Below are positions 11,560-22,786 of a DNA stretch of 63,920 nucleotides, in pieces. A program made the position numbers and the translations under genes. This DNA is from an uncultured Verrucomicrobiota bacterium (GTDB taxonomy: Bacteria > Verrucomicrobiota > Verrucomicrobiia > Opitutales > Opitutaceae): assembly GCA_913058185.1 (NCBI GenBank), contig CAJXQX010000015.1, forward strand, positions 1 through 63,920, written 5' to 3'. The stretch's first letter is position 1. Each line of letters opens with the position of its first letter. The notes under the pieces were generated by a model. It saw only the letters and a program-made list of their open reading frames with translations. It was not told where the DNA came from and made no database searches.

Positions 11560-12273
11560 CTATCGCTGAAACGGATAAAGCGCGCCCAAGCGCAATAATG
11601 ACGTCAACTCCGCCAACGCCGTGCGGCATTCGACTAAAAGTTGGGGATCAGCCAGATCAGCAAACTCCAACCGTTCGCGGTTATGACGCTTCACCCAGTC
11701 CTCCAGTTTTACGGATAGTTCATTATCCAGCATCACGTTACCGCGTACCGCTTCTCGTTCCTTTTCGTTAAGTGTAACCCGTTGTCGCAAACAAGCCGGG
11801 CCACCCCCATTACGCATGCTTTCACGTAGATTGAGGTATTTTACCGCAGCGATTGGATTGTCGGTGGCGGCAATCAGTCGTTCCACCCACTGCGCAGTAG
11901 CGACCATCTCGGCACACTCTTGAGGGGCAATCAGCATCATTTTGCCATCGGGCAAGGTCACGATCTGACTATTGAAGAGATAAGTCCGGACGGCCAAATT
12001 AAGCGGCACCTCTTCCACCCGCACCTGAATCACCGCGAGGTCGTGGTCGCACGATTGTTTGATTTTCTCAATCGCTCGCTCCCCTTCCGCGAACGCCAGT
12101 TCGTGATACATCAGCACATTCACGTGACCGACAGAAATCACATCATTGTGAAATACTCCGGCATCAATCGCTTCGGGTGATTGCTGTAAATAAACAGCTC
12201 GCTCCGGCGAGATCTGGTGGAGCCGGGCGATCGCTTCGCAAGCTTCCAAACTCTGTCTCGCGGGATAACGCAT
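11560..12273 (-). pseudogene. astB: N-succinylarginine dihydrolase, C-terminal half only
   Basis: Matches the last 235 or so of roughly 445 residues of AstB, which hydrolyses succinylarginine to succinylornithine, ammonia and CO2 in the AST arginine-degradation pathway. Conserved landmarks are YPARQSLEACEAIARLH, AIDAGVFHNDVISVGHVNVL, LRESMRNGGGPACLRQRVTL (containing the catalytic Cys) and LADPQLLVECRTALAELTSL. The first half, which should carry the catalytic Glu, is absent: at about 12268-12275 the sequence switches to the antisense of the opposing broken gene. The ATG at 12273 is therefore fortuitous. No other ast gene is in view. Confidence 0.85.
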
Positions 12274-12285
12274 CGGCTGAAGCCG
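12264..12285. other. Inverted breakpoint joining two 5'-truncated genes
   Basis: Head-to-head junction: astB on the minus strand and the WxxxDPxAA protein on the plus strand both lose their N-terminal halves here, with no promoter or intergenic DNA between. This geometry is typical of a chimeric amplification or assembly join; a genomic inversion-deletion is the alternative. Confidence 0.7.
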
Positions 12286-12743
12286 CCGCCTACGTTAACA
12301 CCATTTCGGATTCCCAGACCCGCCAATCGGCGAGCCAAAATCTCCTCAGCCAATGGGCCAACACAGACCCCGTCGCCGCATCGCAGTGGCTCCAGACCCA
12401 ACCCAGCACCGAGGAGATGGAAAACAGCTTTAGCAATCTTGCCGGAAATTGGGCGAGAATGGACCCCGAAGCCGCTACCCGTTGGGTCTCCTCTCTGCCC
12501 GCCAACTCCACGCGTGATCGCGCCGCCCAGAGCTTAATCAACAATTTGATGCAGCATGACATGCCATCCGCGGTGGATCGGCTAGATTTGATCAATGAGC
12601 CCCGACAGCGCCGCAACACCGAGCAACAAATCGCGCATAACTGGTTACAAACCGATCCCGCCACCGCCCGGATCTGGATCCAAAACAGTGACCTTCCGAC
12701 AGAAATGAAAACGCAACTCCTCAACCCCAATCCCGGCGGCTGA
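12274..12743 (+). pseudogene. WxxxDPxAA-repeat protein, 5'-truncated
   Basis: From about DNASAEAAAYVN onward the product is a chain of helical repeats in which the pattern W-x-x-x-D-P-x-A-A-x-x-W recurs: QWANTDPVAASQWLQ, NWARMDPEAATRWVSSLP and NWLQTDPATARIWIQ. Such proteins are common in Verrucomicrobia, usually longer and with an N-terminal signal or membrane anchor; function unknown. The N-terminal part is missing at the breakpoint around 12270. The codons before that belong to antisense astB. Confidence 0.6.
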
Positions 12744-12785
12744 TGGCTCTGTCAAAACCAAGTCGATGACCTAGTGGTCCGCCCG

Positions 12786-13286
12786 CTACCACTGCCCCGA
12801 TTGGCTGTCCTTGATCATCTGTTCGAGCATATTAAAACGCACCTCACCGTAATTGATTGCATAACGCATCCGCGTATCGCGCACCACCCACGTCGTCGGC
12901 ATCCAAGTGAAACGCACCCCGAGCAATGAGCTCGCGCGCTTCCCCTCTCGGCTAGACTCATTGGGGTGGCGCCAGATTTCCAGATTAGGCAAATCCTTGG
13001 TATTGATGCCATTACGCCCTAGCAGCCCTACGTCGTCCTTATCGCTGCCCCAAGTAGAGATAAAGATAAACTTAATCCCCGGATTTTCCTTTATGAAGGT
13101 GGGCCACCCGCCGTCTTGAAATTCGACAATACAATTGTGACACCACGACGCCCAAATATGCACCACTGTCGGCGTCGACGAGTCCGTCGCCTCGACCAGT
13201 CGCGCCTCAAACTGCTCATCGGTTTCGGCCCAAACCGGAATCACCAACAAGCTGGCGAATAAGAGAGAGAAAAGGATTCGTTTCAT
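12786..13286 (-). CDS. Secreted thioredoxin-like protein
   Basis: 166 residues: signal peptide MKRILFSLLFASLLVIPVWA, then a thioredoxin fold with the active-site motif in TVVHIWASWCHNCIVEF (CxxC = C-H-N-C). A cis-Pro loop is seen in FTWMPTTWVVRD. The protein is shorter than DsbE/TlpA but has the right order of elements, so a periplasmic thiol-disulfide reductase or oxidase is likely. The partner is unknown; it stands between the broken WxxxDPxAA gene and a nitroreductase on the same strand. Confidence 0.8.
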   Translation of the reverse strand: MKRILFSLLFASLLVIPVWAETDEQFEARLVEATDSSTPTVVHIWASWCHNCIVEFQDGGWPTFIKENPGIKFIFISTWGSDKDDVGLLGRNGINTKDLPNLEIWRHPNESSREGKRASSLLGVRFTWMPTTWVVRDTRMRYAINYGEVRFNMLEQMIKDSQSGQW

Positions 13287-13321
13287 ATTAATCAGATACT
13301 TGGGCCCATATTTCTATTCCC

Positions 13322-13987
13322 TCAAACAAACGTCGCGATTTCTTCGAGCGGCTTGCGGGTGTTGTTGGGAACTTGGGCATCTTCTGCCGGATAACCTACG
13401 ATGAGGAGTAGGAAGGGTTTTCCCGTGGCGGGTCGATTGAGGACCCGGTTCAGAAAATTCATTGGACTCGGCGTGTGAGTCAGCGTCACCAACCCTGCGG
13501 CGTGAAGGGCGTTGATCAAAAACCCGGCGGCAATACCGACCGACTCCTTCGGATAATAGGTCTGTTGTTTATTACCCGCTTCGTTGATGAAGGCGTTGAC
13601 CGAGAATATCGGAATTAGCCAGGGCGCTTTTTCGATAAACGGCTTAATCGCGTCGGTCCCGAATGGTTTCAGCACATTGAGCCACTCATCCAGAGCTCGG
13701 CTTTCGTAAAATTCGCGTTCCTCCACTTCACTCGCTTCGCGGATCTGACGTTTCACTGCCGGATCACCGACCGCGGCTAAATGCCAGGGCTGCAGATTCG
13801 CTCCACTGGGCGCTGTCCCCGCCGCTCGAATGCAGTCTTCAATAATCTCGCGCGGCACCGGATCGGTGGAGAAATCGCGCACCGTGCGGCGCGTGTGAAC
13901 CATCTCGTAATGCACGCGGGCGGCAATGCGCATGGCCGCTTCGTCGCAACGTTTAAAATTCAAGGGCACCATGGGTTTTGGCTCCAT
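13322..13987 (-). CDS. Nitroreductase family FMN protein
   Basis: About 222 residues of the nitroreductase superfamily. The FMN phosphate-binding start HTRRTVRDFSTDPVPREIIE and the segment RAAGTAPSGANLQPWHLAAV are close to the iodotyrosine deiodinase/BluB-like branch; the second FMN region is YYPKESVGIAAGFLINALH, with the family-typical LTHTPSPMNFLN after it. The enzyme would use reduced FMN from NAD(P)H; its substrate is unknown. Start at the ATG 13987; a GTG at 14005 overlaps a GGGGAG motif and is less likely. It precedes the thioredoxin-like gene by 35 bp. Confidence 0.85.
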   Translation of the reverse strand: MEPKPMVPLNFKRCDEAAMRIAARVHYEMVHTRRTVRDFSTDPVPREIIEDCIRAAGTAPSGANLQPWHLAAVGDPAVKRQIREASEVEEREFYESRALDEWLNVLKPFGTDAIKPFIEKAPWLIPIFSVNAFINEAGNKQQTYYPKESVGIAAGFLINALHAAGLVTLTHTPSPMNFLNRVLNRPATGKPFLLLIVGYPAEDAQVPNNTRKPLEEIATFV

Positions 13988-14022
13988 GGTGTCCAGGATG
14001 ATCACTCCCCAGTGACGTGTCC

Positions 14023-14433
14023 CTAAAAATCGGCGCCGCGCGGTGGTCCTCTCCGATCCCGACCGCGTGGAGGTCCTCCGGGAGGAGGCCCGGGAGGTGG
14101 CATGGCACTTAAAAGTTCACTTTCACTCAGTGCCCCGTCTCCGTTCTCATCATATTCCAGAAGGCGGGCACCGGCCGCAGCTACTTCAGCGGCCGAAACG
14201 ATTTGATCATCGTTTTGATCGAGTAGTCGCAAAAGAGGATGAGGGCCTCGCATTGGAGGTCCGGCATCGGCGCGATCACGCGGCGGCGGGGGGCCTTCAC
14301 CTGTCGCCATGTCTGACGAAAAGTCATTCGCTTCGGCCCCGAGAGCGAATGGCAAGGCTCCCGCGATAAATCCAAATGCCATCAACAAAACTATCAAGAG
14401 CGGCAGGGATCGGGGATAATTGGTCTTGTTCAT
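14023..14433 (-). CDS. Secreted EF-hand protein with Pro/Gly/Arg-rich flanks
   Basis: 136 residues: signal peptide (MNKTNYPRSLPLLIVLLMAF...ALG), a linker with GEGPPPPRDRADAGPPMRGP, two EF-hand loops (LDQNDDQIVSAAEV and YDENGDGALSESEL) and a tail PPPGPPPGGPPRGRDRRGPP. The EF-hand loops have Asp at positions 1, 3 or 5 and a terminal Glu, so calcium binding is plausible. The Pro/Gly/Arg-rich stretches resemble the periplasmic loop of the histidine kinase encoded just upstream. A CTTTAT-N5-CTTAAC box and a CATATT -10-like element precede it. I infer a periplasmic partner or target of that two-component system. Confidence 0.75.
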   Translation of the reverse strand: MNKTNYPRSLPLLIVLLMAFGFIAGALPFALGAEANDFSSDMATGEGPPPPRDRADAGPPMRGPHPLLRLLDQNDDQIVSAAEVAAAGARLLEYDENGDGALSESELLSAMPPPGPPPGGPPRGRDRRGPPRGADF

Positions 14434-14465
14434 AACACCCCAAATCTAACCGCCAAATATTTAGC

Positions 14466-14508
14466 TAATATGTACCAAAAGAGCCTTTTTTGTTAAGCCT
14501 CGATAAAG
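14466..14508 (-). promoter_or_regulatory. Putative response-regulator box and -10 of the EF-hand gene
   Basis: On the minus strand CTTTATCGAGGCTTAAC (14508 to 14492) is an imperfect direct repeat with 11-bp period, then 19 bp, then CATATT. The same half-site, the same 19-bp distance and a near-identical -10 (CATAAT) occur before the YHYH gene. Confidence 0.5.
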
Positions 14509-14515
14509 GCGCGGA

Positions 14516-16108
14516 CTAAACGGCGACCCCATTCAATTCCAACGTGACGGCGAATCCTCGCGGTTCGCGATTCGCAAATGTCACCCGGCCTGCCATGGCT
14601 TCAATCGATTCGCGCACGATCGATAGGCCCAGTCCCGTGCCTCCTAATTCTCGCGATCGCGCCGCATCGGGTCGGTAAAATGGTTCTCCTAAGCGAGCCA
14701 ATGATTCCTCGGGCACACCCGGCCCATCATCCGCGATCTCCACGGTAATCTTGCCGTTGGGAGCATCGCGTGCGACCACTCGGATCTCCGCCGTTTCACC
14801 CGCATAGCGCACCGCGTTACGCAAAATATTGCTCAACACTTTGACCAACAGATTGGCGTCTCCCCCGACAATCATCTCCGGTGGAATATCAATTGGAATC
14901 GACCTATCGATCGCTTCTCGGCGCAGTGCTTCATTCATGGCGTCACGTAATACCACCGGCTGAATCGCGGCCTCGCGGGCCTGCATCCCTGCTTTGGTGA
15001 AGACGAGTAACTCGCCCAACAGCTCGCTCATCTGCTGCACCTCTTCCTGCACATCACGCACGGTCGGCATGAGATCTTCCGGCACCCGGTCCTCCAAAAT
15101 CGCCGAACCCAACTGCAACCGGCCCACCGGCGAACCCAACTCGTGGGCAATATCGGCTAGGAATTTTCGCTGCCCGTTGACCAAGGCATCAAGACGGGCC
15201 GCCATCCGGTTGATACTATCACCGAGCGCCCCCAATTCGTCATGACGGTCCGGGTTCAACCGCACATTAAAATTACCCCGCGCGATCTCGCCAGTCGCTT
15301 GAACCGCTTGACGCAGCGCCCGCGTAATACCGGCCACGAGTGGTAACCAAAAAATTACCGAGACCACCACCACCCCACCGACGATCAAAACCAATGGTCG
15401 CAAATCGAGGAGCTCGCCGAAGGACCAGGTGGAATCGGAAATGGCAAATAGGGTGGCCGGCACAGGCGGACGATTCTCCTCCAATGCCAACGGAATTCGC
15501 ACGCCGGCCCACCATCGGCCTTCCTCCCGATCATATTCAAAAAATCTGCTCTCCGGCGGGGGCTCTCGAGGCGAGCCCGCAGGTGGTCGTCCCCCTTGAT
15601 CGGGCGACGATGGCGGCGGCCCCAGCGGGCGGTTGCCATCCCGCGGCAGAGGAGCGCCTCGGGGTGGAATGCCCCGCGGTGGAGGTGGGCGACCTTCCGG
15701 TTGGCCACGAGGTCCCATCCGACTAACCCCCCCGCCGTCCGCAAGCAGCGGTAGAATACTCTCGGGCAACGTCAGTGGAGCGCCACCCAGTTGTAGGGCT
15801 CCCTCATTGGCAAAAACCATGAAGGCGAGACCGTAGTTCGTTTCGTAGCGCGCCAGCACCTCATCCACCGAAAGCCCGTGGCGCAACAAGGCCGTCATAC
15901 CTTCGCTGATCAATTGTAACCGCTCCGTCACCGGTTCCCTCAACCAACCTTTAATTCCGCCACGCCAAAACAAAACGGCCACCGCCACGGTGAAAATCAG
16001 CAGTAGATTGAGACCGAGCCAAACGGAGATTTTGAGCGAAAGCGGATAACGAACATTCATGGCATTGAACCCCAATTTACCGAATCTAGATTGGGAATGC
16101 TCGTCCAT
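14516..16108 (-). CDS. Sensor histidine kinase with Pro/Gly/Arg-rich periplasmic domain
   Basis: 530 residues. TM1 about 28-49, a periplasmic sensor region to about 237 whose segment 131-187 is extremely rich in Pro, Gly and Arg (e.g. RPPPPRGIPPRGAPLPRD), TM2 about 238-260, HAMP, then HisKA with phospho-accepting H322 in LADIAHELGSPVGRLQ (HELGSP in place of the usual HELRTP) and HATPase_c with NILRNAVRYA, ADDGPGVPEES and GGTGLGLSIVRE. Start ATG 16108 has a good Shine-Dalgarno (AAGGGCGAG). It follows the response regulator by 23 bp, so the two are one operon. The layout recalls CpxA/RstB-type sensors. The signal is unknown; a metal or envelope cue is inferred from the neighbours. Confidence 0.9.
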   Translation of the reverse strand: MDEHSQSRFGKLGFNAMNVRYPLSLKISVWLGLNLLLIFTVAVAVLFWRGGIKGWLREPVTERLQLISEGMTALLRHGLSVDEVLARYETNYGLAFMVFANEGALQLGGAPLTLPESILPLLADGGGVSRMGPRGQPEGRPPPPRGIPPRGAPLPRDGNRPLGPPPSSPDQGGRPPAGSPREPPPESRFFEYDREEGRWWAGVRIPLALEENRPPVPATLFAISDSTWSFGELLDLRPLVLIVGGVVVVSVIFWLPLVAGITRALRQAVQATGEIARGNFNVRLNPDRHDELGALGDSINRMAARLDALVNGQRKFLADIAHELGSPVGRLQLGSAILEDRVPEDLMPTVRDVQEEVQQMSELLGELLVFTKAGMQAREAAIQPVVLRDAMNEALRREAIDRSIPIDIPPEMIVGGDANLLVKVLSNILRNAVRYAGETAEIRVVARDAPNGKITVEIADDGPGVPEESLARLGEPFYRPDAARSRELGGTGLGLSIVRESIEAMAGRVTFANREPRGFAVTLELNGVAV

Positions 16109-16131
16109 TTACTCGCCCTTAACAAAATTAT

Positions 16132-16866
16132 CTACTGAGCAACGGGGTCGATAAACAGATATCCCACCGAACGCAGCGTCTGAATGAACCGAGGATTCTT
16201 GGCATCATCCCCCAATTTCTTCCGCAGCGCCGAGATGTGCACATCAATCGATCGATCGAACACATCGTAGTTTCGTTCCCGCACTTCATCGAGCAAAGAC
16301 TCCCGCGTCTTCACCCGCCCTTTGGCTTTGGCCAAGCCCCACAACAAGTCGAACTCCACCGCCGTCAGACCCAGGGCACGGTCACCCAGCACGACCGTGC
16401 GAGCTTCGGGCCGTATCCGAAGTTCGCCTACGACAATTTCCGCGACCGTCTCGTCCGACGATGATTCCGCCGCACGACGTCCGCGACGCAACACCGCCCG
16501 CAATCGAGCCAATAATTCACGGGTGGAAAACGTTTTAGGCAAATAGTCATCTGCGCCCACCTCGAGGCCGACGATCCGGTCCATCTCATCACCTCGGGCC
16601 GTTAACATCAGCACCGGCACATCACTCTTAGCTCGGATGCGCTTGAGTACCTCGAACCCATCCATCCCCGGCAGCATCACATCCAGCAGAACCACATCCC
16701 AAGTTTCGGCCAATACCCGTTCCAAACCACTGGGTCCATCATGCACCGCTGTGATTGTAAACCCGAGGGTGCCCAAATATTCATTCACCATCCGGCATAG
16801 TTTCTGATCGTCATCGATCATCAGCAGACGAATAGCATTAGAAGCAGCAGGGGCGGTGGTACTCAT
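16132..16866 (-). CDS. OmpR-family response regulator
   Basis: 244 residues from the ATG at 16866 (longer starts are not conserved). Receiver domain with acidic pocket (MIDDDQ, residues 16-21), phospho-acceptor D62 in DVVLLDVMLPGMDG, T89 in LMLTARG and K111 in DYLPKTF (Thr replaces the usual Pro). The C-terminal winged helix has LTAVEFDLLWGLAKAKGRV, DRSIDVHISALRKKLGD and a closing VGYLF. OmpR-type regulators bind direct repeats with an 11-bp period, and exactly such CTTAAC repeats occur at 16925-16941, in the shared promoter region with the divergent YHYH gene. Partner of the kinase 14516-16108. Confidence 0.93.
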   Translation of the reverse strand: MSTTAPAASNAIRLLMIDDDQKLCRMVNEYLGTLGFTITAVHDGPSGLERVLAETWDVVLLDVMLPGMDGFEVLKRIRAKSDVPVLMLTARGDEMDRIVGLEVGADDYLPKTFSTRELLARLRAVLRRGRRAAESSSDETVAEIVVGELRIRPEARTVVLGDRALGLTAVEFDLLWGLAKAKGRVKTRESLLDEVRERNYDVFDRSIDVHISALRKKLGDDAKNPRFIQTLRSVGYLFIDPVAQ

Positions 16867-16924
16867 CACCGTCACCTGAATTGATCCGTCCATCACACGC
16901 AACCTCGGAGCTTTTTTTCCGGGC

Positions 16925-16966
16925 CTTAACGCGGTCTTAACAAATCTGTCCAATTCTCCACATAAT
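16925..16966 (+). promoter_or_regulatory. CTTAAC-N5-CTTAAC box and -10 of the YHYH gene
   Basis: CTTAACGCGGTCTTAAC (16925-16941) is a perfect direct repeat with 11-bp period, the geometry bound by OmpR-family regulators and close to the PmrA consensus. After 19 bp comes CATAAT (16961-16966). It lies 57 bp before the YHYH start and 59 bp before the divergent regulator gene. Confidence 0.65.
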
Positions 16967-16997
16967 CGCTTTACCTACTTCGCCTAAATTTTGCGGC

Positions 16998-19598
16998 ATG
17001 AATCCACGACTCTTTTTCATTAGCGCCTCCGTTTTGGCCGCTTCAGCGCTAAATGCCGTCGACCCGGATCCGCGCTACAACAGCTGGCTCACCAACCCCA
17101 GTGGCACCTACGCCCGCCTCTACGAGTCCACCACCGCTCAACTCGCGGGCACCGCCGTGACGACTTGGAGCCGCGGCCAGGGCACGCAATCCACGCCTAC
17201 CTACGCCGGCGTTAACCAAGTCTCCTACTCCGCCGACTGGGTCTACATTCGCGGGTCCGGTCTCGGCTTCCACACCATGGGGCCATGGTATCTCAACGCC
17301 GCTCAAACCCGCGACTTCCCCAGCTATCCCGGTAACACCGACGTGCTCTACCGCATTCCCCGCACGCCCTCTGTGCCAGCCACCAAAACCCAAACCAACC
17401 TCGGCGCCATTGGCTACTTCGTCGATGGCGTGGCCATGTTCGACAACACCGACTCGTTTTCCTACAGCACCAGCAACGCCGCCGACGCCAGTCCCGTCGC
17501 CTCATTCTCAGGCCGCGGCGATGGCGTTTGGAATCGCGACGCCTATGTGAACGAGGGAGTCACCTTCGATCCGGCCTTCGCTCACCAAGCCGGTTCGCTC
17601 TATCACTACCACGCCAACGCTCCCGCCCTTCGCTATCAACTCGGCGATAACGTCACCTACGATTCCTCCACCAAGACCTACGCCGAGGACTCCGCCAACG
17701 CATCCAAGCATTCACCTATCGTTGCCTGGACTCGCGACGGTTTTCCCGTCTATGGCCCCTACGGCTACGCCGAGGCCAACAACGCCAGCAGCGGCATCCG
17801 TCGCATGATTTCTGGTTACATCAAACGCGATGGCACGAGTGGCACGACCGATCTCAACTCCACCGGTCGCACCACGCTCCCCTCTTGGGCGGCCACTGCG
17901 CAAGACCGCAGCGCCACCCTCGCCGCCAGTGCACAAGGTCCCGCCGTCAGCACCACCTACGTCCTTGGCCACTACCTCGAAGACTACGACTACCTCGGCG
18001 ACCTGGGCCAAACCCAAGGCACCGACTTCGACCTCGACCTCTACAATGGTCGCACCTGCGTCAGCCCCGAGTTTCCTGATGGCACCTATGCTTATTTCCT
18101 TTCGGTGGAAACTGACGGCACGCCCAAATTTCCTTACATCATCGGTCGTTATTTTAATGGCTCTCCCACCGGGGATTCCGTCAACAGTATCAGCGAAACG
18201 GTGACAGAATACCTCCGCGCCGCGCCCACCGCCGATCTCGTCGTTTCCTCGACCACCAACGGCTCCGCCGTCGACGTCGCTTGGAACTCCGTCGAAGGGG
18301 CCACTTACCGCGTCGAGTCCTCCGCCGACCAATCGAATTGGACCACCCTCGCCGCCTCTGTCGCCAGCGCGGGACTCACCACCACTTACACCGCAACCCG
18401 GGCCGACTTCTACCGGGTGACCCTCGCCAGTATCGCCTCTTACGATACCTCCGGCACCAGTGGCACCGCCGTAGGCAGCACGGGCACGGTCGCCCACTCC
18501 ACCGATTCCACACCCGCTATCACGGCCAATCCGACCTCTCCTACCGTAGCCACGGATGGAAGCGTAACGCTATCCGTCAGCGCTTCGGGCACCGGCCCTC
18601 TAACTTACCAATGGGCGAAGGATGGCACCGACATCATCGGAGCAACTTCGTCGACCTACGCTATCACTGCTGCCGCCGCGACCGATGCCGGAAGCTACAC
18701 CGCCACCGTCACCAACGCCCTCGGCAGCACCACGAGCGTCGCTGGCGTGGTCTCGGTCACGAACATCGTCACGCCAAACCCAGTCACCCGGATCGTAAAT
18801 CTCTCCACTCGAGCCGAGGTCGGAGGAGAAGCAGGCACTCCTGTCATCGGCTTGGTAATTGGGGGCACGGGAACCAAGTCGATCCTTGCTCGATCCGTCG
18901 GCCCCACCCTTGAAAGCTACGGCGTCAGCGGCGTTCTCTCCGATCCTGAACTCAAACTTCAACGGTCATCCGACGATGTTGTCGTGGCCTATAACGACGA
19001 CTGGGGACTCGCGCCCAATAGTTCCAACATCGCGAGCGCCACCAGCACCTTGGGTGGATTTGAACTCACCACCGGCAGCTCCGACGCCGCCTGGTATGGG
19101 GATCTTGCCACGGGTGGCCACACCGCCCCGAGCCTCGATGATCGCGGCGAAGGCATCGTGCTGCTCGAAATCTACGATGCCGGTTCCGCGACTGATTCCG
19201 CTCAGTTCACCAACGCCTCCACTCGAGCTTGGGTAGGCACCGGCGATTCCATCCTGATCACGGGATTCGTGCTCGCGGGCACCGAATCACGCCAGGTGTT
19301 GCTACGGGCGGTCGGCCCCACTTTGACCGACTTTGGTGTCACCGGAGAGCTCACCGACCCATTCGCCAGTCTTTACACCGGAGAGACGCTGATCGGCAAC
19401 AATGACAATTGGGGCGACTCCCCGAACGCCACTCAAATAACAACTGCCGCATCGAACGCTGGAGCCTTTGCGCTGCCATCCGGAAGCGCCGACTCCGCCC
19501 TCCTAGTAGAGCTCGCGCCCGGCGCCTACACCCTGCAAGTCGGCGGAGTGAGTGCGGCCACGGGCACCGCGCTAGTGGAGGTATACTTGATCGACTAA
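16998..19598 (+). CDS. Secreted YHYH-domain protein with Ig-like domain and C-terminal repeats
   Basis: 866 residues: signal peptide (MNPRLFFISASVLAASALNA), a YHYH domain to about residue 395 with YHYH at 202-205 (SLYHYHANAPALRYQ) and SPIVAWTRDGFPVYGPYGYA, a fibronectin-like stretch, an immunoglobulin-like domain (GPLTYQWAKDGTDI, DAGSYTATVTNALG), then two copies of an Opitutales surface repeat (NLSTRAEVG...SILARSVGPTLESYGVSG and NASTRAWVG...VLLRAVGPTLTDFGVTG). The histidine motif suggests metal binding. It is divergent from the two-component genes, has its own CTTAAC box and a strong terminator, and is followed by the MbnP-MbnH fusion. Probably exposed at the cell surface; no enzymatic role is known. 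Confidence 0.9.
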   Translation: MNPRLFFISASVLAASALNAVDPDPRYNSWLTNPSGTYARLYESTTAQLAGTAVTTWSRGQGTQSTPTYAGVNQVSYSADWVYIRGSGLGFHTMGPWYLNAAQTRDFPSYPGNTDVLYRIPRTPSVPATKTQTNLGAIGYFVDGVAMFDNTDSFSYSTSNAADASPVASFSGRGDGVWNRDAYVNEGVTFDPAFAHQAGSLYHYHANAPALRYQLGDNVTYDSSTKTYAEDSANASKHSPIVAWTRDGFPVYGPYGYAEANNASSGIRRMISGYIKRDGTSGTTDLNSTGRTTLPSWAATAQDRSATLAASAQGPAVSTTYVLGHYLEDYDYLGDLGQTQGTDFDLDLYNGRTCVSPEFPDGTYAYFLSVETDGTPKFPYIIGRYFNGSPTGDSVNSISETVTEYLRAAPTADLVVSSTTNGSAVDVAWNSVEGATYRVESSADQSNWTTLAASVASAGLTTTYTATRADFYRVTLASIASYDTSGTSGTAVGSTGTVAHSTDSTPAITANPTSPTVATDGSVTLSVSASGTGPLTYQWAKDGTDIIGATSSTYAITAAAATDAGSYTATVTNALGSTTSVAGVVSVTNIVTPNPVTRIVNLSTRAEVGGEAGTPVIGLVIGGTGTKSILARSVGPTLESYGVSGVLSDPELKLQRSSDDVVVAYNDDWGLAPNSSNIASATSTLGGFELTTGSSDAAWYGDLATGGHTAPSLDDRGEGIVLLEIYDAGSATDSAQFTNASTRAWVGTGDSILITGFVLAGTESRQVLLRAVGPTLTDFGVTGELTDPFASLYTGETLIGNNDNWGDSPNATQITTAASNAGAFALPSGSADSALLVELAPGAYTLQVGGVSAATGTALVEVYLID

Positions 19599-19634
19599 CC
19601 CTCGATCCCTGCGGGATATTTTCGGGTGCTCTTC

Positions 19635-19671
19635 AACGCCCTCCGCGCCACCTAGCCGGAGGGCGTTTTTC
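19635..19671 (+). terminator. Rho-independent terminator of the YHYH gene
   Basis: Stem AACGCCCTCCG / CGGAGGGCGTT (11 bp) with an 11-base loop, followed by TTTTTC. It separates the YHYH transcript from the downstream fusion gene, which therefore needs its own promoter. Confidence 0.9.
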
Positions 19672-19681
19672 TTTACCCAGA

Positions 19682-19719
19682 CTTAACAAAACTCCCCCGC
19701 TCGTTCACATCCGCTTAAC
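19682..19719 (+). promoter_or_regulatory. CTTAAC boxes upstream of the MbnP-MbnH fusion gene
   Basis: CTTAAC at 19682-19687, and GTTCACATCCGCTTAAC at 19703-19719, an imperfect direct repeat with 11-bp period. TATGCT (19730) or CATAGT (19741) could be the -10. The leader to the start at 19942 would be about 200 nt and holds no other feature that I recognise. Confidence 0.5.
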
Positions 19720-19941
19720 CCGACTCCGGTATGCTCCCGGCATAGTTCGTCATCGACCTCACGTTTACCTGTCTTTACGCCCTGCTTGGTTGAGATCCTC
19801 TTCGCCAAGTAGCACGCCTCCCCTCCCTTCCATTGCGAGTCACTATCCTCAATTTCCTAGCGAACATCTCGGACTCATCCAAAGTCAGCGCGGATCGCTC
19901 CAGGTCGATCTCCGTCCTGCTTCCAACTCATCTTACGACGA

Positions 19942-21726
19942 GTGGCTCTCTCTTTCAAATCCGTGGCTAAACGACACCTAAAATTCCTCGAACGAGTTGG
20001 GCTCGTGGCATCCATCGTTATCACCGCGGCTACGGTAACCTCCGCGGCCAATGTCTCCCTAGATTTCGCATTCGGTTGGCAAAAAACTGCCATCACCGTA
20101 CCCTCGATGCCGGTCACCTCTCCAGCTGGCCAGACCCTCTCTATCACCAGAATTTCAGGGCTTATCTCTGAGATCGAACTCGTCCGCGCCGACGGCATCA
20201 GTGTGCAACTCACCGGCCAATACGGTTTCTTCGACGCCGCAGACCCCACGCGCCACAACGTCGCCCTTCACAGCGTGCCGGTCGGAGACTACACCGGCAT
20301 GAATCTCCGCGTGGGCGTCGCACCCGAGCCCAACCATTCCGACCCCAGCCTCTGGCCTGCCGGGCATCCGCTCAATCCCATCACCAATAGCCTGCACTGG
20401 GACTGGACCGGCGGTTACGTTTTCCTCGCGATCGAAGGCCACTACGCCAACTCCGCCACCGCGCCTCGCGAGGACGGGTTCTCCTTCCACCTCGCCACCG
20501 ACGAGCTCCCGCTCCCCGTTCGTTTCTCTCAACCCTTTTCCATCAACGGAGACAGCAGTATCCCGCTGCTGTTTGATGTGGCTGATCTTCTCGGTGACCT
20601 CCACCTCGATCCCGCTGCCGATACCACAACCACCCACTCCCGCGAAGACGATACCCTCGCCCCAATTCTCGCCGCTGCCGTCGGACCCTCCTTCTGGTTC
20701 GGTAACGCCGTCGCCGCCAAGCTGACTCAATCCGAAACCCAAGATTTAGAATCTGAAATCGCCGCCGCCAAACCCTTGCCATTCCCGATCCCCGCCGGTT
20801 GGCCCCAACCTGCTCTCCCGCACGACAACGCTCCCACTGCACCGGGGGTCGCTCTCGGCGAAAAACTCTTTCAGGATTCCCGCCTCTCGGGCGACTCCAC
20901 CCAGTCCTGCGCCGACTGCCACCAGAGCACCTTCGCTCTCGCAGATGACACCGCCTTCAGTCTCGGCATTCACGGCAAACCCGGCACACGCAACGCCATG
21001 CCGCTCTTCAATCTCGCCTGGTCTCCCGACTTCGCTTGGGACGGTTCTCAACCTCGTATTCGCGATCAATCCATCGCCGCGATGACCCACCCCATTGAAA
21101 TGGATGGTGACCCCGCTGAAGTCGTGGCAGCCCTCGCCCCAGACGAATCTCTTCAAGCCGCTGTCGCCGCCGCGTTTGGCGACACCGCCATCACCGTCGA
21201 GCGCATCGGCCTCGCCCTTGAACAGTTTCTCCTCACCGAAATTTCGGCCAACTCCCGCTTCGATCAATCCCTCCGCGGTGAAGTCGAACTCACCGCCACC
21301 GAGCTCCATGGTTTGGAGCTCTTCAATACCGAATTTGATCCCCGCCGTGAACAATTCGGAGCCGACTGCTTTCACTGCCACGGCGGCGGGCTCTTCACCG
21401 ACTTCGGTCACAAAAACAACGGCCTCGATCTCGTATCCATCGATCAAGGACGCAAACTCGTTACGAACTCCGACGCCGACGCCGGAAAATTCAAGACTCC
21501 GTCTCTGCGCAATATTGCGCTCACTGCGCCTTACATGCACGACGGCCGATTCGCTACCCTAGAGGAGGTCATCAATCACTACACCAGAGGCGTAGAGCGT
21601 GCCCCTCAACTTGATCCCAACCTTGCCAAACACCCCGGCCCCGGCGTCCCTTTGAGCCGCGAAGATCGCGCCGCCCTAATCGCGTTTCTCGAAACCCTCA
21701 CCGACTCCAAATTCACTGCCAAATAG
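19942..21726 (+). CDS. Fused MbnP-like copper-binding domain and MbnH/MauG-like di-heme peroxidase
   Basis: 594 residues. Signal-like N-terminus, then an MbnP-type domain (about 37-215): VSLDFAFGWQ with W46, VGDYTGMNLRVGVAPEPNHS, LNPITNSLHWDWTGGYVFLA and FSFHLATDELPLP. Then a cytochrome c peroxidase/MauG-like domain with two heme sites: CADCH at 323 and CFHCH at 476, with GEKLFQDSRLSGDSTQSCAD, GKPGTRNAMPLFNLAW and PSLRNIALTAPYMHDGRF. In known pairs the separate enzyme MbnH oxidises a Trp of MbnP to kynurenine and MbnP binds copper; here both are one chain, so modification in cis is inferred. Start GTG 19942 is tentative (GTG 19963 possible). Periplasmic or outer surface. Confidence 0.88.
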   Translation: MALSFKSVAKRHLKFLERVGLVASIVITAATVTSAANVSLDFAFGWQKTAITVPSMPVTSPAGQTLSITRISGLISEIELVRADGISVQLTGQYGFFDAADPTRHNVALHSVPVGDYTGMNLRVGVAPEPNHSDPSLWPAGHPLNPITNSLHWDWTGGYVFLAIEGHYANSATAPREDGFSFHLATDELPLPVRFSQPFSINGDSSIPLLFDVADLLGDLHLDPAADTTTTHSREDDTLAPILAAAVGPSFWFGNAVAAKLTQSETQDLESEIAAAKPLPFPIPAGWPQPALPHDNAPTAPGVALGEKLFQDSRLSGDSTQSCADCHQSTFALADDTAFSLGIHGKPGTRNAMPLFNLAWSPDFAWDGSQPRIRDQSIAAMTHPIEMDGDPAEVVAALAPDESLQAAVAAAFGDTAITVERIGLALEQFLLTEISANSRFDQSLRGEVELTATELHGLELFNTEFDPRREQFGADCFHCHGGGLFTDFGHKNNGLDLVSIDQGRKLVTNSDADAGKFKTPSLRNIALTAPYMHDGRFATLEEVINHYTRGVERAPQLDPNLAKHPGPGVPLSREDRAALIAFLETLTDSKFTAK

Positions 21727-21812
21727 TCGACCGCCCCACCCTTGGTTCCTCACTCGTTCTCATTCTCGTTCTCGCCGTTTTTTAGCTCCATCGCCCTCCA
21801 GCTTTACTCCGC

Positions 21813-21851
21813 CTTAACAATAAACCGCCTCGGCCTTAATCTTCGCTTAAC
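21813..21851 (+). promoter_or_regulatory. Phased CTTAAC boxes after the fusion gene
   Basis: CTTAAC at 21813, CTTAAT at 21835 and CTTAAC at 21846; starts differ by 22 and 11 bp, so all three lie on one helix face. A strong terminator stands about 75 bp downstream, so any transcript started here would be a short RNA unless it reads through. Confidence 0.5.
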
Positions 21852-21923
21852 GCCCTCGGCCTAAACTCGTTTTCGAAGTTGGAAAAAACCTAACCGTCAA
21901 TCCGACTTCATGATATCAATATC

Positions 21924-21961
21924 CCCGTCTGTGAGATGGCCCTCTCACAGGCGGGTTTTTT
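21924..21961 (+). terminator. Strong rho-independent terminator
   Basis: 13-bp stem (CCCGTCTGTGAGA / TCTCACAGGCGGG, one G-T pair), 6-base loop and six T. It may end the fusion-gene transcript or a short RNA begun at the phased CTTAAC boxes. The 301-bp gap 21727-22027 holds nothing else I recognise. Confidence 0.9.
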
Positions 21962-22027
21962 GTGCTTCAGAACATTCACCGATACCCTGAGCTCGCCTAT
22001 TCACCTCCCTTGTGACACGATTACGTC

Positions 22028-22786
22028 ATGACTCGGTTTCATCCCAAACGAACAATCCAATCTCGCTCGAGCTCCTTGTTACTCGCGAGCGTGGGTGCGG
22101 TTCTAATGTGCGCTTCAGCGATGGCCCAAGATACCAATATCCAAGTTCAAGGAACCTTGGAGGCTCTGATCCCCTCGAGTCTACGTTCGCTGCATATTGA
22201 TAAGCCTTACGTTGATTTCAGAATCGATCTCGGGGCCGACGGCACGCTGTTCGACGCCATGCCCATCAAATCCAATCACCGCGAACTGCTGCCAGCTGCT
22301 CACGAAGTATTGCAATCCGTGACCCTCATTCCTGCCACCAAAGACGGCCGACCCATCCGGAAGCGCGCCAAAATTCGTGTCTCATTTTACGATGCTGAGC
22401 AACGCGCGTGGCGCAGCGGGGCCAGCATGTCCCCATTTGGCGACACCCCCGCCGATGCCGCCCGCCGGCGGATATACGCCAATTCAGCGAGTAGCTACTT
22501 TTACGATATCAGCGATGAAGCAGAACTCGACAGTCCCCTCACCCAGCTGCTCGCCCGCCGCCGCATTTACAGCTCACAAGAAGGCGTGAAGACCCAAGGG
22601 AAATGTTTGGTCGAATTCTACATTGGCCCCAACGGGCGAGCCCGGTTTCCCCGCGCCATCGAAAGCGACAGCAACGACGTTGCGATCAGCGCCGCGCTAA
22701 CGTTACTGAAAACCCGTTTCACGCCCCCGCGCAAAAACGGCAAACCTACTTACGTCATGATCCAACAGGATTTCGAGTTCCGCTAG
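22028..22786 (+). CDS. Secreted protein with TonB-like C-terminal domain
   Basis: 252 residues with a signal peptide ending SAMAQ. The C-terminus (about 185-252) resembles the TonB/TolA energy-transduction fold: [49 protein letters not shown]. Because the protein is exported rather than anchored by a TonB-type N-terminal helix with a Pro-rich stalk, it is not a standard TonB. The middle holds a partly similar unit ([20 protein letters not shown]), so the protein may have two such domains. The last bases overlap the convergent asnS stop by 4 bp. Function unknown. Confidence 0.7.

Follow-up and report, generated by a model that had tools for sequence, protein, structure and literature searches.

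The di-haem enzyme MbnH oxidises a tryptophan of its partner protein MbnP, in which kynurenine is formed, and the small protein CpxP of the two-component system CpxRA is itself a target of that system. In the excerpt of PMC3621798 consulted, MbnP and MbnH are treated as a gene pair of unclear role (the paper was not searched for fusions), and under a heading that calls them 'mysterious partners' the pairs are traced far beyond the methanobactin producers. According to the same excerpt, the sequence of MbnP shows no marked similarity to MopE or CorA. The copper of CorA is held by two His residues, a water and a kynurenine (PMC3912023). For YHYH proteins, no paper on function was found in the literature searched; PMC11992049, in the portion consulted, names the family and merely lists it. 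The present analysis concerns a 63,920-nt stretch of DNA (contig CAJXQX010000015.1 of GenBank assembly GCA_913058185.1; hereafter the window), which is one contig of the 4.09-Mb draft genome of an uncultured Verrucomicrobiota bacterium of the Opitutaceae, and in which an OmpR/PhoB-family regulator and its sensor kinase are encoded among genes for an EF-hand protein, a YHYH protein and an MbnP-MbnH fusion.

The genes are arranged from left to right as EF-hand, kinase and regulator on the minus strand, followed by YHYH, MbnP-MbnH and a TonB C-terminal-domain (TonB-C) protein on the plus strand (Table 1). They probably form a regulon run by the local pair, in which dimers of the regulator would activate the promoters of secreted redox proteins. 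From the sequence comparisons below, the existence of a regulon is well supported, and activation by the local regulator is the best reading.

The initial annotation quoted four direct repeats, at 14508 on the minus strand, 16925, 19703 and 21835, and all of them were found at these positions. It overlooked three others, CTTTAC-N5-CTTAAC at both 19671 and 21802 and ATTTAC-N5-CTTAAC at 16107. Boxes similar to the last, likewise between the regulator and kinase genes, occur in three relatives (G020, G006 and G061). A box before each gene, as had been claimed, was indeed present; however, the repeats at 19703 and 21835 proved to be the second dimers of promoters whose main dimers lie at 19671 and 21802, and the one at 21835 belongs to the promoter of a candidate short RNA or leader. 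A search for CTTAAC-N5-CTTAAC with up to two mismatches yielded seven sites in 13901-22100, whereas 300 dinucleotide shuffles averaged 0.27 and never gave more than 3. In the same region the 15 other gaps (0 to 15) gave 0-2 sites each, indicating that the excess is specific to the 5-bp gap. A chance origin of the boxes was ruled out by these gap-specific counts and the shuffles. In the whole window eight sites were detected at this stringency, seven of them within 14492-21851, and when three mismatches were allowed there were 35 sites against 22.7 expected. The genome-wide motif search that had been proposed earlier was carried out with CTTWAYNNNNNCTTAAC, a pattern built after the window sites had been seen, and returned six exact sites in the genome, five in this cluster and one on another contig (C103:6200). 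The latter falls within four tandem half-sites of 11-bp period (L054:6200-6238). This array has a phosphosugar-isomerase-like gene (assigned by eye) on one side and a gene for a di-haem enzyme (L054:4016-6052, PF03150) on the other.

The promoters that contain these boxes were compared by alignment. Of 53 aligned sites, 37, 32 and 28 were used in successive analyses; because boxes without an obvious second dimer were excluded, the frequencies given here describe the chosen promoters. The full design consists of dimer 1, a weaker dimer 2 with its last half-site at +32/+33, exactly 10 bp, the hexamer TANNNT and, usually, a start codon no more than 25 nt further on. A half-site with at least five of six matches was present at +32/+33 from the second half-site of dimer 1 in 26 of the 32 promoters, and the upstream half-site of dimer 2, located 11 bp before the last one, is weak and reads roughly SYWCAY. 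TANNNT was found at offset 10 after the last half-site in nine of the 32 promoters and at none of the other offsets from 0 to 29. The relaxed form YANNNT was found there in 18 of 32, compared with at most six at other offsets, and T occupied position 6 of the hexamer in 30 of 32, compared with at most 19 elsewhere. All four window promoters conform to this design, each with its own TANNNT hexamer (Table 1). The 19-bp distance from the repeat to CATAAT (YHYH) or CATATT (EF-hand), to which the initial annotation had drawn attention, is literally present, but the interpretation of these hexamers as -10 elements was unsupported, as they sit inside dimer 2 and the conserved -10, TANNNT, lies further downstream; the alignments of 37 and 32 promoters ruled them out in this role. 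In 24 of the 28 gene promoters an open ATG follows the -10 at a distance of 5-25 nt, so the messages from these promoters should be leaderless or nearly so. The MbnP-MbnH gene of the window is an exception, with a leader of 206 nt (19736-19941) and a GTG start, whereas in five relatives the start codon is 5-7 nt downstream of the -10.

The exact composite pattern TTAAC-N26/27-CTTAAC-N10-TANNNT was searched in 252 family genomes (the window's own genome being G000 in this set), with the reversed pattern as the control. As a result, 12 sites were found in 11 genomes: four before MbnP-MbnH fusions (G000, G023, G129 and G134), two before the candidate short RNA (G000 and G064), and two before YHYH proteins (G233 and G138). 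Of the other four, one stands in front of a gene for a DHOR di-haem oxidoreductase (G119), one in front of that for an animal-type haem peroxidase (G144), and one in front of a sulfatase gene (G133) whose product carries the domain found at the C terminus of the YHYH protein; the twelfth (G038) lies inside an open frame. Module-type genes or the RNA were downstream of 11 of the 12 sites. Four of the 12 are training promoters (those of the fusion and the RNA in the window, the G023 fusion and the G064 RNA), and seven of the eight others precede module-type genes. The reversed pattern gave 10 sites in 10 genomes; none was at a module-type gene by open reading frame (ORF) and tblastn checks, the control neighbours being judged without a Pfam scan, and none had the start of a secreted-looking ORF within 160 nt downstream. 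One control site (L236) lies, on the other strand, 181 nt before an ORF of secreted look. The regulator was detected in eight of the 11 genomes with a composite site, on a contig separate from the site in G119, G133 and G144. Since the same promoter precedes other haem peroxidase genes in other genomes, the redox theme suggested by the initial annotation appears reasonable.

Both box and gene were conserved in relatives, a point on which the earlier proposal could be followed up. G023, G025, G040 and G049 each have the pair, YHYH and MbnP-MbnH, and their boxes occupy homologous promoters. G064 also has the pair, YHYH and the fusion with boxes, the fusion there following YHYH without a box of its own, and the pair and the EF-hand gene carry boxes in G020, G006 and G065, genomes with zero PF14240 matches. 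Sixteen genomes with the regulator were scanned for boxes with up to two mismatches, and in 14 of them at least one lay no more than 2.5 kb from the pair. In these 16 genomes, box density was 0.28/kb (34 sites) within 2.5 kb of the pair and 0.05/kb (nine sites) outside, several of the nine being further boxes of the modules in the window, G064 and G065.

Co-occurrence was determined in 61 family genomes, of which 13 had the regulator (E up to 1e-75) and 13 had the strict box CTTWACN5CTTAACA (16 sites). Of the 13 genomes with the regulator, 10 had the strict box, compared with three of the 48 without it (Fisher p 7.7e-7), whereas the reversed pattern was found in three of 13 and six of 48, respectively (p 0.39). 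Eight of the 16 strict sites are in pair loci, one is before an EF-hand gene (G054 C16, on a contig that carries a second, more distant pair), three are near di-haem enzyme genes (C103 of the window's genome, G026 and G044), and four are elsewhere (G006, G001, G022 and G038). A box was located upstream of full-length MbnP-MbnH fusions in five of seven genomes with the regulator and in none of six without it. The composite promoter was also sought at 28 of 32 PF14240 matches (two without a locus and two partial ones were left out, and the G026 match begins at a contig end), with a limit of three mismatches that was chosen after the scores had been seen. It was found at eight of 15 matches in regulator genomes, six of which had helped to derive it and two of which (G024 C193 and G054 C16) had not, and at none of 13 (one uninformative) in genomes without the regulator, where the nearest (G043 and G038) were one mismatch past the limit. 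A metagenome-assembled genome labelled Akkermansia muciniphila (L123) encodes a regulator with the same recognition-helix stretch and has a box with two mismatches before a YHYH gene. The conservation of box and gene across genera, the co-occurrence with the regulator and the composite scan with its control bear out the earlier proposal of one regulon under the local pair.

Several observations weigh against this interpretation. The composite count of 12 is near the 10 of the reversed control, the difference lying in positions and co-occurrence only, and the strict-box totals were not enriched either (16 sites in 13 genomes, compared with 12 in nine for the reversed pattern). When one mismatch was allowed in CTTWAYNNNNNCTTAAC, the genome contained 23 sites, fewer than the 46 of the reversed control, and the degenerate box alone is therefore uninformative. 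Because box counts per genome are not enriched, the case for the regulon rests on position and co-occurrence. The regulator was not detected in G138 and G233 (assemblies of 410 and 560 contigs), which have composite sites, and was missing from G022, G026 and G038, which have the strict box. No box precedes the MbnP-MbnH fusions of G044 and G054, G050 has boxes with three mismatches only, the G054 C59 locus has none, and seven of the 15 YHYH matches in regulator genomes, including the second YHYH gene of the window's own genome, have no composite promoter. The C103 array lies 147 bp from the start of the di-haem gene but faces away from it, and the 16107 box has neither a second dimer nor a -10.

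The three genomes with strict boxes but no local regulator would fit a different model, in which a paralogous OmpR-family regulator binds the boxes and the local pair merely sits among its targets, and four other full-length OmpR/PhoB-type regulators are encoded in the window's genome. This model is unlikely in view of the strict-box co-occurrence described above, of the boxes that flank the pair even in genomes without YHYH genes, and of the recognition helix, in which the stretch DRSIDVH(I/V)S was constant in 17 of 17 aligned regulators. The sequence of the half-site raises the question of a phosphate (PhoB/SphR) regulon, as it is the core of the cyanobacterial SphR box, given as CTTAACCT in the excerpt of PMC1906773, and has the same 11-bp period; the excerpt also places the E. 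coli PhoB repeats 10 bp upstream of TAN3T/A. However, the genome encodes a better PhoB (the C20 regulator, 252 bits against 185.5 for the local one, both under the cut-off of 296.2), the 3.75-kb stretch at the only pstS match holds a TGTAAC/CGTAAC/TGTAAC array with an 11-bp period and no CTTAAC box at up to two mismatches, and none of the observed targets is a known phosphate gene. A phosphate regulon is thus highly improbable as an explanation of the boxes, and the regulon is probably not a phosphate one. The TGTAAC array (contig 16, L207:65-92) stands before a porin-like gene (assigned by eye) and pstS, with YANNNT 10 bp after it, and is a probable Pho box in its own right.

There is equally little to recommend the repeats as ordinary sigma-70 elements, with TTAACA as the -35 and CATAAT as the -10. 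A consensus promoter scan does list TTAACA-18-CATAAT and TTAACA-18-CATATT, but it returned three promoter-like sites against 2.9 expected. Moreover, conservation extends to the first half-site, the 11-bp repeat period and the second dimer, and the conserved TANNNT lies further downstream.

In the model of a regulon run by the local pair, the phosphorylated regulator (encoded at 16132-16866) is predicted to bind as tandem dimers to two boxes of 11-bp period, whose last half-sites are separated by 32-33 bp or roughly three helical turns. Because dimer 2 ends 10 bp before the TANNNT -10, it would occupy the place of the -35 contact of RNA polymerase and could recruit the enzyme, the expected outcome being activation rather than repression. 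The products of the genes switched on would be proteins that are secreted or lie at the cell surface (MbnP-MbnH, YHYH and EF-hand here, other haem peroxidases in other genomes), a haem-oxidation function being shared by several of them, and the short RNA or leader would be switched on together with them. The EF-hand protein may feed back on the kinase, and copper, an oxidant or calcium at the cell surface might serve as the signal. The link to copper is a family resemblance of the MbnP-MbnH protein only, and copper is no more than a candidate signal.

Table 1. Genes, predicted promoter elements and candidate RNA in the regulator region of the window
Feature	Position	Strand	Basis
Secreted EF-hand protein, Pro/Arg/Gly-rich tail	14023..14433	-	ORF, weak PF00036, canonical loop DENGDGALS
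EF-hand promoter, predicted -10 TAGATT, 9 nt before ATG	14443..14448	-	Promoter alignment
EF-hand promoter, dimer 2 downstream half-site CTAAAT (degenerate)	14459..14464	-	Promoter alignment
EF-hand promoter, dimer 1, CTTTAT-N5-CTTAAC	14492..14508	-	Box scan
Sensor histidine kinase, Pro/Arg/Gly-rich stretch in sensor part	14516..16108	-	Best profile CpxA, below cut-off
Extra dimer ATTTAC-N5-CTTAAC in regulator-kinase gap, facing against operon	16107..16123	+	Box scan
OmpR/PhoB-family response regulator	16132..16866	-	Pfam/NCBIfam profiles, recognition-helix alignment
YHYH promoter, dimer 1, perfect CTTAAC-N5-CTTAAC	16925..16941	+	Box scan
YHYH promoter, dimer 2 downstream half-site CTTTAC	16969..16974	+	Promoter alignment
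YHYH promoter, predicted -10 TAAATT, 7 nt before start codon	16985..16990	+	Promoter alignment
Secreted YHYH protein (PF14240), Ig-like domain, C-terminal domain common to other surface proteins	16998..19598	+	Profiles
MbnP-MbnH promoter, dimer 1, CTTTAC-N5-CTTAAC	19671..19687	+	Box scan, alignment
MbnP-MbnH promoter, dimer 2, GTTCAC-N5-CTTAAC	19703..19719	+	Box scan, alignment
MbnP-MbnH promoter, predicted -10 TATGCT	19730..19735	+	Alignment, composite scan
MbnP-MbnH fusion, N-terminal MbnP with HWDW, C-terminal MauG/MbnH-type di-haem domain	19942..21726	+	Profiles, PDB sequence, fold
Short-RNA/leader promoter, dimer 1, CTTTAC-N5-CTTAAC	21802..21818	+	Box scan, alignment
Short-RNA/leader promoter, dimer 2, CTTAAT-N5-CTTAAC	21835..21851	+	Box scan, alignment
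Short-RNA/leader promoter, predicted -10 TAAACT	21862..21867	+	Alignment, composite scan
Candidate short RNA	21874..21961	+	Start placed 7 nt after -10; ends at terminator-like hairpin
TonB-C protein	22028..22786	+	Profile; 3' of short-RNA promoter in three genomes

The regulator contains a receiver domain (PF00072, 97.0 bits) and a Trans_reg_C winged helix (PF00486, 85.9 bits), both over the cut-offs, and its best NCBIfam profile is OmpR, followed by CpxR. A trait of the OmpR/PhoB family, a direct-repeat box ending about 10 bp before the -10, is present. The pair falls short of the equivalog cut-offs of CpxRA (CpxA, 169.9 against 486; CpxR, 206.2 against 341) and of the heavy-metal systems CopRS/CusRS/CzcRS (TIGR01386, 136.6 against 292.55; TIGR01387, 174.9 against 279.2). 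An alternative start of the kinase is the ATG at 16060. The EF-hand protein of the window scored 20.9 bits with PF00036, below the cut-off of 25.4, and its counterparts in L106 and L055 scored over it; 12 orthologues scanned have one to four canonical loops each. In the best 40-aa windows, Pro/Arg/Gly richness was 0.53-0.75 in 17 of 17 kinases and at least 0.50 in eight of 12 EF-hand proteins, figures that stand without a background. These shared stretches suggest a contact between kinase and EF-hand protein, and the latter is a predicted member of the regulon and a possible sensor accessory.

The MbnP-MbnH fusion was matched by PF20243 (98.7 bits, cut-off 27) and PF03150 (155.7 bits), and its best PDB sequence match was MbnH 6e1c. 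The predicted model (mean predicted local distance difference test, pLDDT, of 76) also matched the fold of 6e1c first, with MbnP 7l6g lower in the list. The fusion scored under the NCBIfam equivalog cut-offs of TIGR04052 (MbnP, 37.3 against 140) and TIGR04039 (210 against 362.85). In 13 aligned fusions, both Trp residues of WxW, three His residues of the MbnP domain, two CxxCH motifs and the Tyr of VxxHY are invariant; this Tyr, where classical peroxidases have Met, is presumably the distal axial residue expected of MauG/MbnH enzymes. None of MbnA, MbnB and MbnC was found among the nine proteins scanned at 12177-22786, precursor peptides not being sought.

The YHYH protein was matched by PF14240 (122.5 bits, cut-off 25), and its domain profile gave no PDB match below E 0.7. 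The predicted domain model (mean pLDDT 32) was not used. Its C-terminal domain (18790-19598) is shared with the C103 di-haem enzyme (L054:4019-4813) and other surface proteins, and is a possible surface anchor. A composite promoter occupies the position of the YHYH promoter in G065 (L213:7795-7935) although YHYH and MbnP-MbnH are absent from that locus, and may be a remnant or serve a short product. In a neighbourhood survey of 80 of 586 candidate loci in the genome collection, YHYH was located directly before MbnP in several Verrucomicrobiota. In a Verrucomicrobiales metagenome-assembled genome (L137:7836-12776), MbnP, CCP_MauG, YHYH and sulfatase domains are joined in one 1647-aa open frame, and this fusion gives a strong hint that YHYH, MbnP and MbnH have a joint function. 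In the same survey, MbnP and MbnH domains were also found together in many Bacteroidota (L138-L196), some with two successive MbnH-like domains.

Downstream of the composite promoter at 21802 come 56 nt and then a 13-bp hairpin (21924-21955) with the loop UGGCCC and a run of six T. The folds of 21849-21961 and of its G064 counterpart gave z-scores of -4.25 and -3.39, and G064 retains the promoter, the hairpin and the T-run. In G065 the promoter is retained as well, and the loop string GATGGCCCTC is carried by a different stem. This string occurs once in the window against 0.2 expected and was missing at the pair in the same-genus loci of G020 and G061; Rfam gave no match to the candidate RNA. 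Because the TonB-C gene follows the element on the same strand in all three genomes (with a small open frame in between in G064), the element at 21802-21961 could instead be a regulated leader or attenuator of that gene, and the G065 hairpin, which has no clear T-run, points the same way. In favour of a free short RNA are the two fold scores and the strong terminator-like hairpin, which carries six T both in the window and in G064; the leader is a somewhat less plausible reading, with a sizeable share of the probability.

In summary, with a regulator, an exact promoter grammar and a set of co-regulated genes at hand, the stimulus and the function of MbnP-MbnH and YHYH proteins could be addressed by plain experiment, and the promoter design provides a search pattern for further members of the regulon. 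Tentatively, the system may be a surface-oxidation regulon of Verrucomicrobiota not described before, in which an EF-hand-coupled pair would use a fixed promoter with two dimers and hardly any leader to bring unrelated haem oxidases (MauG/MbnH type, DHOR and animal-type peroxidase) and YHYH proteins to the cell surface, together with a regulated short RNA, and in which YHYH, MbnP and MbnH might be one machine. Nothing on such a regulon was found in the literature searched, where coverage of subscription journals is thin.

Among known systems, the locus appears to be a variant of the OmpR/PhoB-type regulon. It resembles the Pho box of E. coli PhoB in its tandem direct repeats of 11-bp period 10 bp before TANNNT, and the cyanobacterial SphR box in the half-site CTTAAC (both as given in the excerpt of PMC1906773), but it differs in that its two dimers are separated by about three turns, with a weak middle, and in that its targets are surface redox proteins, while the pst region of the same genome has the TGTAAC array. 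It is similar to CpxRA in that the kinase is closest to CpxA, the regulator to OmpR and then CpxR, and a small secreted protein beside the pair is a predicted target; in contrast to CpxRA, all scores are under the NCBIfam cut-offs and the small protein gives weak matches to EF-hand models and none to any other Pfam family. The combination of a surface copper protein and a di-haem partner is shared with CorA/CorB and MopE/SACCP of methanotrophs (excerpt of PMC3621798), where CorA/MopE-type genes go down with copper, whereas copper is only a candidate signal here. Finally, both domains link the fusion to the MbnP-MbnH pair of Methylosinus and other bacteria, through Pfam and NCBIfam profiles (the latter below cut-off), the PDB sequence match to 6e1c and the folds of 6e1c and 7l6g, but here the two form one fused chain, predicted to be under the control of a two-component system and encoded beside a YHYH gene.

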